Shown piece after piece: positions 23,931 through 54,943 of a DNA stretch of 64,000 nucleotides; the first letter of the stretch is position 1, and every line of letters begins with the position of its first letter. Made by a program: the position numbers and the translations under genes. The notes beneath the pieces are model-generated. The model had not been told where the DNA came from and made no database searches. It saw only the letters and a program-made list of their open reading frames with translations. This DNA comes from Bradyrhizobium sp. NP1. GTDB lineage: Bacteria; Pseudomonadota; Alphaproteobacteria; Rhizobiales; Xanthobacteraceae. The stretch spans positions 930,001 to 994,000 of the forward strand of contig NZ_CP127385.1 in the NCBI RefSeq assembly GCF_030378205.1, read 5' to 3'.

Positions 23931-24060
23931 GGTATCGGCTTAGCTGCACCGGCCGCGCAGCGCCAGCCGAAAAAGGCATGTCAGGGCATCATCCCCCGTT
24001 CACAGCGAATCGGACGGGAGCCGGAGGGGCGGATTTTCCGGGTCCCGGAACGGGACAGGA

Positions 24061-24187
24061 GCATGATCCGGAAAAGTGTGCACCGGTTTTCCCTCGCGAC
24101 CAACGCGGAACGCGTTTGCGCGGAGATCATGCTCAATCAAAAACCGAAAGCGCGATGACGATTCAACCTAATCTCATCGTGCTTTAG
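24061..24187. repeat. 127-bp intergenic repeat, copy 1
   Basis: It begins GCATGATCCGGAAAAGTGTG and ends CGTGCTTTAG, and contains three dyads: GCATGATC...GATCATGC; AAACGCG...CGCGTTT-like; and GCGCGATGA...TCATCGTGC. A second copy of equal length lies at 27465-27591. I recognise it as a common Bradyrhizobium intergenic sequence. Its last bases provide the TAA stop of the minus-strand chemotaxis gene. Confidence 0.8.
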
Positions 24188-29072: not shown

Positions 29073-29147
<75 letters not shown>

Positions 29148-31379: not shown

Positions 31380-31604
31380 CTGCCGCGGTCGAGGCGCTTG
31401 CCCGCTGCGCGCCACGCTTTTTCAAAGATGGTTCAACCCTTTATCGCACGAGGCTTGCAGGGGTGACGTCAAGGGTGACGTCCGCTCGAAAATTGCGCGT
31501 TCGGTTCGCCATGGTGTTTTCAACCAGTTCTGGCGCTTGCGCGCTGTGGCAATTTGCCGGGTCACGCCGTAGCATGCACGACGTCTCAATGGGGAGCGCA
31601 CACC

Positions 31605-32105
31605 ATGATCCTGGGTATGAGCCTGGCTACCTTCACGATGGTCCATGTGATCATCAGCCTGATCGCGATCGCCTCTGGCTTCATCGTCATGTTCGGCATG
31701 CTGGGTGGAAAATGGATGCCGGGACTGACCGCGATCTTCCTCCTGTTCACGATCCTGACCAGCGCCACCGGCTTCCTGTTTCCGTTCACCGAGCTACTGC
31801 CTTCGCACATGGTCGGTATCCTCTCGCTGGTGCTGCTCGCGATCGCCTGTCTCGCACTCTATGCGATGAAGCTCGCCGGTCCGTGGCTCTGGATCTATGT
31901 GCTGACGGCGCTGGTCTCGCTCTATCTCAACGTCTTCGTGCTGGTGATCCAGGCGTTCCTCAAGGTCCCGGCGCTGCATGCGCTGGCGCCCAGCGTGCCG
32001 CCGAGCGAGCCGCCCTTCGCCGTGGTGCAGGTCGTCGTGCTGGTATTCTTCGCGGTCGTGATCATCGGCGTGTGGCGGCGCTTTCGTCCTGCAATGCTCG
32101 CCTGA
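31605..32105 (+). CDS. Four-helix membrane protein, unknown function
   Basis: A 166-residue protein with four or five hydrophobic helices (for example MVHVIISLIAIASGFIVMFG and HMVGILSLVLLAIACLALYA) and a short basic C-terminus. No catalytic motif; no named family recognised. ATG 31605 has GGGGAG 9 nt upstream and is preferred to an earlier in-frame ATG. It is followed at once by the mirrored hairpin pair. Confidence 0.7.
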   Translation: MILGMSLATFTMVHVIISLIAIASGFIVMFGMLGGKWMPGLTAIFLLFTILTSATGFLFPFTELLPSHMVGILSLVLLAIACLALYAMKLAGPWLWIYVLTALVSLYLNVFVLVIQAFLKVPALHALAPSVPPSEPPFAVVQVVVLVFFAVVIIGVWRRFRPAMLA

Positions 32106-32162: not shown

Positions 32163-32238
32163 CTAGTGGAGCGGATTTGACGTTCGCTACCCTCGCCGCG
32201 ATTCCTTGATGCGAACGTCAAATCCAAAGCTCCACTAG
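32163..32238. repeat. Large hairpin H1 of mirrored pair (right-arm AAA bulge)
   Basis: The left arm 32163-32187 and right arm 32211-32238 are exact complements over 25 bp (outer CTAGTGGAGC, inner GGATTTGACGTTCGC), interrupted only by an unpaired AAA on the right arm between the two blocks. The loop is 23 nt. The outer end is CTAG and the inner end GTTCGC. Confidence 0.9.
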
Positions 32239-32250
32239 AAGCGACAATCT

Positions 32251-32329
32251 GGTAGTGGTCCTTTTGATTCTAACATTCGCAAAAGAGCCAGCCGCAATGG
32301 GATGCGAATGTTAGAATCGGGCCACTACC
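32251..32329. repeat. Large hairpin H2 of mirrored pair (left-arm TTTT bulge)
   Basis: Outer block GTAGTGGTCC pairs with GGGCCACTAC (one G-T), inner block GATTCTAACATTCGCA pairs exactly with TGCGAATGTTAGAATC, and TTTT is unpaired on the left arm. The loop is 21 nt. It starts 12 nt after hairpin H1. The bulge is on the opposite arm from H1, so H2 is the mirror orientation of the same design. Confidence 0.9.
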
Positions 32330-32406: not shown

Positions 32407-33696
32407 ATGGATCGCATTCGCATCACCGGCGGCCACAAGCTCAACGGCACCATCCCGATTTCCGGTGCCAAGAATGCCGCGCTTCCCCTGATGATCGCGG
32501 GCCTGCTCACGGAAGAGACGCTCATCCTCGACAACGTGCCGCGGCTCGCCGACGTCGCGCAGTTGCAGCGCATCCTCGGCAATCACGGCGTCGACATCAC
32601 CGCGCAGGGCAAGCGCGTCGGTGACCGCGCATATCAGGGCCAGACCCTGCATATCTCCGCTGCCGACGTCATCGATACCACGGCCCCCTACGAGCTGGTG
32701 TCGCGCATGCGCGCGAGTTTCTGGGTGATCGCGCCGCTGCTGGCGCGGATGCATGAGGCGCGGGTGTCGCTGCCGGGCGGCTGCGCCATCGGCACGCGGC
32801 CGGTGGATCTGCTCATCATGGCGCTGGAGCAGCTCGGCGCCGACATCTCGATCGATGCCGGCTATGTGGTTGCCAAGGCGCCCGGCGGGCTCAAGGGCAA
32901 CGCGATCGATTTTCCCAAGGTGACGGTCAGCGGCACCCATGTCGCCCTGATGGCAGCGACCCTCGCCAGGGGCACGACCGTGATCGACAATGCCGCCTGC
33001 GAGCCGGAGGTCGCCGACGTCGCCGCGTGCCTCAACAAGATGGGCGCCCGGATATCGGGCGCGGGCACGCCGCGCATCGTGGTCGAGGGTGTCGATCAGC
33101 TCCATGGCGCCCGTCACACCGTGCTGCCGGACCGCATCGAGGCCGGCACCTATGCGATGGCGGTGGCGATGACCGGTGGCGACGTGCAGCTCTTGGGAGC
33201 GCGCTCCGAGCTTTTGCAATCGGCGCTCGACGTGCTGACGCAGGCCGGCGTCGAGATCGCCGTGAATGGCGATGGCATCCGGGTCGCCCGCAACGGCGCA
33301 GGGCTGCGCCCGGTCACGGTTTCGACCGCGCCATTCCCGGGCTTTCCCACCGACCTGCAGGCGCAGCTCATGGCGCTGATGGTCAATGCAGAGGGTTCCT
33401 CGCGGATCACCGAGACGATCTTCGAGAACCGCTTCATGCATGTGCAGGAACTGGCGCGGTTCGGCGCCAGGATATCGCTCGACGGCGAGACCGCCACCAT
33501 CCACGGCGTCGACAGGCTGCGCGGCGCTCCGGTCATGGCGACCGACCTGCGCGCCTCGGTTTCGCTCGTCATCGCCGGGCTTGCGGCCGAGGGCGAGACC
33601 ATGGTCAACCGCGTCTATCATCTCGACCGCGGGTTCGAGCGTCTGGAGGAAAAACTGTCGGCGTGCGGGGCGTCGATCCAGCGCATCAGCGACTGA
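32407..33696 (+). CDS. murA: UDP-N-acetylglucosamine 1-carboxyvinyltransferase
   Basis: A 429-residue EPSP-synthase-fold enzyme performing the first committed step of peptidoglycan synthesis in the cytosol. Lys22 in [10 protein letters not shown] and the catalytic Cys126 in [14 protein letters not shown] are present; the Cys predicts fosfomycin-sensitive chemistry. The C-terminal RAGAALVIA-type motif reads [22 protein letters not shown] lies 6 nt upstream of the ATG. It leads the conserved block murA, DUF2948, hisD, UPF0262, phosphatase, maf, yacG. Confidence 0.97.
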
Positions 33697-37965: not shown

Positions 37966-38041
37966 GCCCAGGTAGCTCAGTTGGTAGAGCATGCGACTGA
38001 AAATCGCAGTGTCGGTGGTTCGATTCCGCCCCTGGGCACCA
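37966..38041 (+). tRNA. tRNA-Phe (GAA)
   Basis: Complete cloverleaf: acceptor GCCCAGG/CCTGGGC with encoded CCA, D-arm AGCTCAGTTGGTAGAGC, anticodon loop CTGAAAA in a TGCGA/TCGCA stem (anticodon GAA) and T-arm with GTTCGATTCC. Confidence 0.96.
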
Positions 38042-51767: not shown

Positions 51768-51813
51768 CGAAATCCCCGAGGATGTGGTGGCGTCACCATA
51801 GCGATTGGCCGCC

Positions 51814-51897
51814 GTCATTGCGAGCGCCAGCGAAGCAATCCAGAAAAAGTGAGCAGGAAGGCTGGATTGCTTCGGAGCTATCGCTCCTCGCAATGAC
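51814..51897. repeat. Interspersed palindromic repeat (GTCATTGCGAG...CTCGCAATGAC)
   Basis: Outer arms GTCATTGCGAGCG and CGCTCCTCGCAATGAC, with an inner pair GCGAAGCAATCCAG / CTGGATTGCTTCG. I recognise this as a widespread alphaproteobacterial intergenic palindrome. It separates the reductase from the thioesterase gene. Confidence 0.75.
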
Positions 51898-51902
51898 TGT
51901 GG

Positions 51903-52325
51903 CTACTCGCTCTTGAGGATCTTGAACACGCCGTTCGCCATGGCGATGCAGCGGGCCTCCACCGTGATCTCGGTGGTCATGAAGATCAGGCTGCGGGTCG
52001 AGCGCACCACGCGCGGCCGCGAGATCAGGATTTCGCCGATCTTGCCCGCCTCGACGAAATGCATGTCGAGCTGCACGGTGGCCAGCATCGGTTTTCCCGT
52101 GACGAAGCGTGCGGTCATGCCACAGGTGCGGTCGGCGAAGGTCATCAGCACGCCGCCCTGCACCAGCCCGCGGCGGTTGTGATGCTTGTGCTCGGTCGGC
52201 AACGCAAACTCATGGCCGCCGTCGCGCTCGCGCTGCCACAGCGGCCCGACCAGCTCGATGAAGCCGGTCCCCTCGACGATCTTCCAGCCGTCGGATTTGA
52301 GCCGTGCCGCAGCCTTGTCGATCAT
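51903..52325 (-). CDS. PaaI-type hotdog thioesterase
   Basis: A 140-residue single hotdog domain. The family pattern HHNRRGLVQGGVLMTFADRT holds the catalytic Asp on the long helix; the following strands (LATVQLDMHFVEAGKIGEIL) are typical. It likely hydrolyses an acyl-CoA ester; the acyl group is unknown. Confidence 0.88.
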   Translation of the reverse strand: MIDKAAARLKSDGWKIVEGTGFIELVGPLWQRERDGGHEFALPTEHKHHNRRGLVQGGVLMTFADRTCGMTARFVTGKPMLATVQLDMHFVEAGKIGEILISRPRVVRSTRSLIFMTTEITVEARCIAMANGVFKILKSE

Positions 52326-54778: not shown

Positions 54779-54855
54779 CTAGTGTGGTGGTTCAGAAATT
54801 CGCTTCATTTTATCGGCGAGTGCGTCAAGCGAATTTCTGAACCAAACCACACTGG
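54779..54855. repeat. Large hairpin H3 of second mirrored pair (right-arm AAA bulge)
   Basis: The outer block CTAGTGTGG pairs with CCACACTGG (one mismatch). The inner block GGTTCAGAAATTCGCTT pairs exactly with AAGCGAATTTCTGAACC. Between them the left arm has T and the right arm AAA. The loop is 21 nt. Same plan as H1 at 32163, but the stem sequence is unrelated. Confidence 0.88.
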
Positions 54856-54868
54856 AATTTCAAGATTC

Positions 54869-54943
54869 CTAGTGTCCTTCGAATCCGAAGTTCGCCTAAG
54901 AGGTTGCTGCGAAATAATGCGAACTTCGGATTCGGGACACTAG
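54869..54943. repeat. Large hairpin H4 of second mirrored pair (left-arm TT bulge)
   Basis: The outer block CTAGTGTCC pairs exactly with GGACACTAG and the inner CGAATCCGAAGTTCGC with GCGAACTTCGGATTCG. TT is unpaired on the left arm. The loop is 23 nt. It starts 13 nt after H3 and has the opposite bulge side, as H2 has relative to H1. Confidence 0.92.

Follow-up and report, generated by a model that had tools for sequence, protein, structure and literature searches.

A CTAG-flanked two-hairpin repeat of Bradyrhizobium sp. NP1 and other Alphaproteobacteria: a probable non-autonomous transposable element

Introduction

The stretch of 64,000 nucleotides from Bradyrhizobium sp. NP1 analysed here, hereafter the window, contains two long hairpins set side by side, each with a bulge on the arm that faces its partner. 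Such a mirrored arrangement raises the question of what the pair is: a product of chance, a structure selected in RNA or a unit that moves, and in the last case by which machinery. The initial annotation had seen in it a selected structure or a mobile palindrome family with co-varying arms, and had inferred either a BIME-like unit moved by a RAYT-type transposase or an RNA-processing or termination structure. It had also proposed a genome-wide search for the hairpins, counts of their spacing and bulge polarity, and a search for a RAYT-like gene flanked by the same unit. Most probably, the two hairpins form a non-autonomous transposable element (MITE) of about 165 bp, which targets CTAG, ends in unbulged inverted arms of 25 nt and resides mostly between genes.

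Anatomy of the hairpin pair

The two bulged hairpins are present as first described, with AAA in the right arm of H1 and TTTT in the left arm of H2, and both carry an outer TAGTGG and an inner TTCGC. Besides an outer block, H1 pairs 32173-32187 with 32211-32225 around a loop of 23 nt, and H2 pairs 32266-32281 with 32303-32318 around a loop of 21 nt. They are indeed closely set, at a distance of 13 nt between a CTAG and a GTAG foot (32239-32251) rather than the 12 nt given earlier. Fold, motif and genome matching resolved the unit, copy 1, into the following parts:

32163..32328, no strand: element copy 1, complete two-hairpin unit, 166 bp
32163..32187, plus strand: outer arm of the A hairpin, unbulged 25-nt end CTAGTGGAGCGGATTTGACGTTCGC
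32188..32210, no strand: loop of the A hairpin, 23 nt, with GATTC at 32200
32211..32238, plus strand: inner arm of the A hairpin, AAA bulge at 32226-32228, inner CTAG foot at 32235-32238
32239..32251, no strand: spacer between the inner feet, 13 nt
32252..32280, plus strand: inner arm of the B hairpin, TTTT bulge at 32262-32265, GATTC at 32266, foot GTAG in place of CTAG
32281..32303, no strand: loop of the B hairpin as parsed for 25-nt arms (21 nt with one extra stem pair)
32304..32328, minus strand: outer arm of the B hairpin, unbulged, reading GTAGTGGCCCGATTCTAACATTCGC on the minus strand, GANTC at 32314

Copy 1 is flanked by an ORF of hydrophobic appearance that matches nothing in Pfam (31554-32105) and by an ORF of the EPSP synthase/MurA family (32407-33696). 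H1 and H2 are the halves of one 166-bp repeat, which is beyond chance. Taken by themselves, the short motifs occur in the window at chance level, TTCGC..GCGAA 7 times (6.75 expected) and TAGTGG 6 times (5.25 expected); it is the long paired arms, together with the copy number in the genome, that place the hairpins beyond chance. The 186-nt stretch at copy 1 folds at -88.6 kcal/mol, compared with -47.9 +/- 4.1 kcal/mol for 200 shuffles, none of which folded as well (z = -9.99).

A fold of this strength would suit a selected RNA structure, for instance 3'-end protection, an RNase III site, a terminator or a small RNA, in which the hairpins are needed in the transcript and mobility is happenstance. 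Against such a role, the two strands of copy 1 fold about equally well, and Rfam returned no family at the gathering score at copy 1, only sub-threshold microRNA models. Elsewhere in the window, Rfam identified two tRNA genes (29076-29147 and 37966-38038).

The initial annotation had counted four hairpins in the window, and a second pair was indeed found. Its stem sequences differ from those of copy 1, and its layout is equal:

54779..54943, no strand: element copy 2, 165 bp
54779..54855, plus strand: A hairpin of copy 2, outer arm 54779-54803
54869..54943, minus strand: B hairpin of copy 2, outer arm 54919-54943, GANTC at 54881 and 54929

Copy number and structure of the family

The pattern CTAGTG..TTCGC..GCGAA matched the window's own genome (7.71 Mb, one contig) 145 times on the forward and 148 times on the reverse strand, compared with 6 and 8 times for a reversed control; a first-pass pattern search had given 96 and 104 matches, compared with 2 and 3 for the reversed control pattern. 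Since an intact hairpin may match on both strands, the genome can reasonably be credited with at least about 140 hairpins, well beyond the loci of the window. The whole pair gave at least 43 near-full-length matches in this genome, copy 1 itself included, with 40 of 183 first-look candidates scored. Tandem copies of the element have one CTAG in common. A bulge scan blind to the side recovered 82 hairpins from 55 stretches of the genome, 26 of them without a recovered partner; in all 28 adjacent pairs recovered whole the bulges lay on the inner arms, so that the mirrored polarity held throughout.

A wider element set, drawn from all 120 public loci described below as well, comprised 162 unique elements that had already passed arm-pairing thresholds, elements with poor arms thus being uncounted, and was reduced to 107 at 90% identity. 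Read from B to A, an element consists of a 25-nt outer arm, a loop of mostly 22-23 nt, an inner arm with an insertion, a spacer, a second inner arm with an insertion, a loop of mostly 24-25 nt and another 25-nt outer arm. The outer arms are unbulged inverted ends with the consensus CTAGTGNSNYSRNTYYRAARTTCGC. The insertion measures 2-4 nt, mostly A with AAA commonest, and separates a block of about 10 bp from one of about 15 bp. With a gap permitted on the inner arm only, it was missing from three B and four A inner arms and present in the rest (104 and 103 of 107, respectively); at one locus (L065) TTT/AAA occurs in both arms of one hairpin. The commonest spacer length is 13 nt, found in 54 of the 95 parsable spacers among the 107 elements.

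Arms within one hairpin match at 24.0 of 25 positions on average, compared with 19.5 (B) and 18.0 (A) when matched with those of elements having a different outer arm. In an alignment of 61 elements hand-picked from the 107, 97.9% of cells are paired and two-sided changes occur at 33 of 48 base pairs, with none of 500 shuffles as high, and sliding the partner columns by 1-3 lowers pairing to 26.5-39.9%. The A hairpin provides the cleaner evidence of covariation, since the structure derives from one row and the search pattern already fixes part of the B arms. Together with the inward bulges, this covariation supports the palindrome family that had been proposed, mobile and built of mirrored pairs with co-varying arms.

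Covariation may also come about without selection for hairpins, through template-switch correction of quasi-palindromes during replication, and the 370 two-sided changed cells of the alignment, far exceeding the one-sided departures (33 wobbles and 61 mismatches), are consistent with such a process. Free correction would be expected to erase the insertion, so its retention in almost all inner arms, and its inward position in every one of the 28 pairs, counts against correction as the sole cause, which is a conceivable but doubtful account. As regards a selected RNA, one-sided departures in the 2925 cells comprise 33 G.U, 32 A.C and 29 other mismatches; G.U is thus not above A.C on the aligned strand, a weak test because transcription may come from either side.

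Mobility and the CTAG target

Dispersed copies and empty sites bear on whether the element moves. The same-genus relative G010 contains seven 165-bp copies that differ at few bases and have unrelated flanks; at up to 3 mismatches, its ends occur as seven left and seven right only, i.e., as those seven pairs. The joined flanks of these sites were searched for in relatives, with six of the seven compared (site 4 left out), and a pre-existing CTAG was present in at least one relative at five of the six (sites 1, 2, 3, 5 and 6). At site 7, CTAG was absent in both relatives compared; it was not seen in L242 at site 5, nor in L250 and L251 at site 3 (GGGCTGAG), and two relatives have CTAA at site 6.

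Copy 2 of the window is absent from 35 of 35 same-genus relatives, in each of which the match runs across the junction uninterrupted by the 165 bp. An alignment of its junction in 14 relatives, in which the query line carried one CTAG entered by hand, showed an empty site in all 14; ten have one CTAG precisely there, and the other four TTAG, TTAC, TTAC and CTAC. The element now stands between two CTAG where those ten relatives have one. At copy 1, G015 alone aligns, without CTAG, and the ancestral site is unreadable there.

As judged from these sequence comparisons, insertion doubles CTAG, or the TA inside CTAG. The near-identical dispersed copies and the empty sites also indicate that the element is mobile, and from them we infer the movement itself. 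CTAG is strongly under-represented in the window (16 occurrences, 5 of them within the two elements, versus 68.5 by a Markov estimate), and hence the element targets a rare site. An open frame of 100+ codons runs into the CTAG of 31% of left (n = 112) and 38% of right element ends (n = 111), compared with 20% in the other frames (n = 528), which served as the control for stop-codon targeting; the excess is modest and no conclusion is built on it.

Only 3 of 55 element sites in the own genome fall within ORFs of at least 100 aa, compared with 770 of 876 random windows, and a rough longest-ORF rule gave 20 convergent and 27 co-directional contexts among 54. One plasmid copy has a substrate-binding-protein gene on one side and, on the other, ehuC of an ectoine-transport set. 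Intergenic positions, frequent placement between convergent or co-directional ORFs and the plasmid locus would all agree with a selected RNA structure, whereas sites that are empty in relatives argue against it. No positive evidence emerged for the processing or termination structure suggested earlier, and a selected RNA is considered an unlikely explanation.

Distribution and GANTC sites

A single end pattern, run against public genomes, matched at least 120 stretches, with Afipia, Bradyrhizobium, Nitrobacter, Rhodopseudomonas, Pseudolabrys, Rhodoplanes, Magnetospira, Rhodospira and Parvularculaceae among the groups represented; when 80 of the 120 loci were scanned, Acetobacteraceae and Terracidiphilus records had one end only. 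A covariance model, applied across the class with 9 candidates scored per genome and stricter filters, detected the element in 20 of 288 genomes and 16 of 220 genera, the own genome included. In a plasmid collection of 72,556 records the window copy was found in three and the G010 copy in none, and none of 50,697 records of a phage collection matched. A distribution so patchy, with bursts in places, is consistent with a mobile element. At L342 and L343 the element takes a distant form of 131-133 bp whose loops are short and stems long, possibly a separate lineage of the family.

Twenty-four of 28 covariance-model loci could be parsed, and 19 of these carry GANTC in at least one outer arm (18 in one alone and 1 in both, with 5 lacking it), the model having been built from arms that mostly carry it; GAATC and GATTC both serve. 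In the non-redundant set, 90 of 107 B arms and 4 of 107 A arms have the site, a count biased by a main pattern that favoured GAATC. These figures raise the idea of a chromosome-organising or methylation-timed element, in which the GANTC of one hairpin would be a CcrM/GcrA-linked site, as suggested for the CIR repeats. On the other side, 9 of 40 B arms of the own genome lack GANTC, and the make-up of the model weakens the first count. This function is rated as improbable, about on a par with that of a selected RNA.

Search for a mobilising partner

The RAYT-driven movement proposed in the initial annotation would make the pair a REP/BIME whose Y1 (HUH) transposase reads single-stranded hairpins. 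Palindromic form, intergenic location, high copy number, mirrored pairs and tandem clusters agree with it, and RAYT-like genes do exist in the genome. Both Y1 genes of the own genome were examined as possible partners and both adjoin GTAGGGTGGGCAAAGC-type repeats, with no CTAGTG within 3.3 kb, so that neither is flanked by the two-hairpin unit. Y1 transposases are not known to duplicate their target, whereas the element does. A duplicated target and RAYT-like genes that stand beside other repeats point to a MITE-like element instead of a RAYT-driven REP/BIME.

The anatomy also differs. In the available part of a REP survey (Di Nocera 2013, PMC3733652), GTAG- and CGTC-tagged REPs/BIMEs are 20-40 bp long with an unpaired tag at the foot, the GTAG types being tied to RAYT genes; like the present family they are palindromic, mostly intergenic, often oppositely paired and found in Bradyrhizobium, but here the hairpins are of about 75 bp and tagless, and the target is duplicated. 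Movement as a REP/BIME is therefore judged very unlikely, the least credible of the explanations considered. The two RAYT-like genes (L071, L072) resemble each other, each being near GTAGGGTGGGCAAAGC..GTGCCCACC repeats, and look like a GTAG-type REPtron. A further paired repeat of the window (51800-51911; CGTCATTGCGAG..CGAAGCAATCCAG and CTGGATTGCTTCG..CTCGCAATGAC) is presumably a CGTC-tagged REP dimer, to judge by its appearance.

Other transposase families were also tried as partners. IS630-type genes (DDE_3) had no match in the own genome (G000), and family ends were absent within about 1.5 kb of the examined loci of DDE_Tnp_1 (2 matches in G000) and of rve (44 matches in G000, G010 and G015, 30 of them covered). 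A scan for ends revealed no autonomous relative in G010 or in six other genomes. Wide end pairs (0.4-4.5 kb, up to 4 mismatches) numbered 16 in 197 loci, and a Pfam search of 27 long ORFs between them yielded no transposase, only housekeeping-type families or no match. The FAD-linked oxidase ORF between two halves at L204 spoke against a composite transposon there. When 1252 ORFs around 117 loci were clustered, no recurrent neighbour stood out among the 25 largest clusters: one, with three ABC transporter ATPases among its members, reaches 8 loci, and the others span at most 4.

The IS5/IS427 group, IS630 and IS481 are families with CTAG, YTAR or TA targets and are candidates by target only. 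IS711, which duplicates TA in YTAR according to the available text of PMC2266754 and PMC2267715, is likewise a candidate mobiliser by target type only (PMC2266754).

Half-size units and a possible origin

Several genomes contain half-size units of 71-75 bp with two unbulged outer-type ends (B+B or A+B), namely L385-L388 in G181, L389 and L390 in G142, and L141, L193 and L204, some of them dispersed as such. Three units of G181 have a common middle sequence and unrelated flanks; Magnetospira contigs contain two that resemble each other but differ in what surrounds them. As these units are bounded by two unbulged ends, the anatomy suggests that the unbulged 25-nt arm is the working end. In two viral-collection contigs, a weak end (5 mismatches) lies about 2.9 kb from a half-size unit (L404 5811-8718, L405 4851-7758), probably by chance.

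In the preferred MITE, each end leads through a loop into an inverted repeat of itself, which makes each half a long hairpin. For its origin and movement, a series of steps may be envisaged. The unit would have arisen when two half-size elements landed about 13 bp apart, leaving the inner CTAG feet as fossil target duplications. The bases inserted in the inner arms would spoil the spacing of the inner ends, and a transposase supplied in trans would then use the outer ends only, so that the whole pair would move as one. Either selection on the hairpins or fold-back correction may keep the arms complementary. A bolder version is put forward tentatively: a compound MITE of two back-to-back half elements, with inner ends kept but disabled by a conserved insertion of about AAA and with GANTC confined to one half, belonging to an alphaproteobacterial superfamily that hits the rare CTAG and is run by a possibly host-encoded transposase.

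Relation to known repeats

Short size, high copy number and terminal inverted repeats are all found in the family as in a MITE, and the empty sites reveal a target-site duplication, with which a doubling of either 2 or 4 bp is compatible. An autonomous element with the same ends, not demanded of every MITE, was absent from the loci searched. The closest known repeats are the CIR, RIME and Bru-RS repeats of alphaproteobacteria.

CIR1-CIR4 (Chen and Shapiro 2003, as summarised in the accessible part of the review PMC2229807) are alphaproteobacterial repeats of about 110 bp with two arms and a linker, GANTC being present in one arm. The presence of GANTC usually in one hairpin links the present family to them, and both are intergenic and have two long stem-loops with a linker between them, TA termini and, in one arm, the CcrM site GANTC (PMC2229807). 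By description, the present element is longer, at 165 bp. Its GANTC is in the stem of one hairpin, with another in the A loop of copy 1, in contrast to the terminal loop of CIR (PMC2229807). Target duplication, marked '?' for CIR in that review, is seen here for CTAG or TA. The Correia/NEMIS and RUP MITEs share small size, TA termini, terminal inverted repeats and target duplication with the family, but fold into one end-to-end stem-loop in the available account (PMC2229807), unlike the two separate hairpins with mirrored bulges described here.

In Bradyrhizobium pachyrhizi, the inner CTAG of a two-hairpin element is occupied by a 99-bp RIME-like element with TA on both sides (L119 3832-4097). 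The window holds a two-hairpin repeat of the same kind at 24060-24186, with GAATC in its first hairpin and GCATGATC..GATCATGC in the second. Both are taken to be of the RIME type, an assumption on our part. Two hairpins, a similar linker length and GAATC in the first hairpin are features that this type has in common with the present family, but its sequence differs, its arms are shorter and no comparable A insertion was seen.

Bru-RS1 and Bru-RS2, short palindromic alphaproteobacterial repeats of 103-105 bp, are preferred by IS711, and its YTAR target is of the same form as the one found here, the likeness to Bru-RS being one of description (PMC2266754 and PMC2267715, as far as their text was available). 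No IS711-like ends or transposase were tied to the two-hairpin family. A literature search and the consulted part of the REP survey (PMC3733652) gave no description of the family; coverage of subscription journals, the original CIR and RIME papers included, was thin, and an earlier description is possible.

Implications

The two-hairpin repeat provides a CIR-like family whose ends are defined and whose target is CTAG, with half-size derivatives, empty sites and recent dispersal within one species. Through this family, the class of unexplained two-armed alphaproteobacterial repeats becomes testable, and concrete questions can be asked about the mobilising transposase, about what the bulge does and about the presence of GANTC in a single arm.
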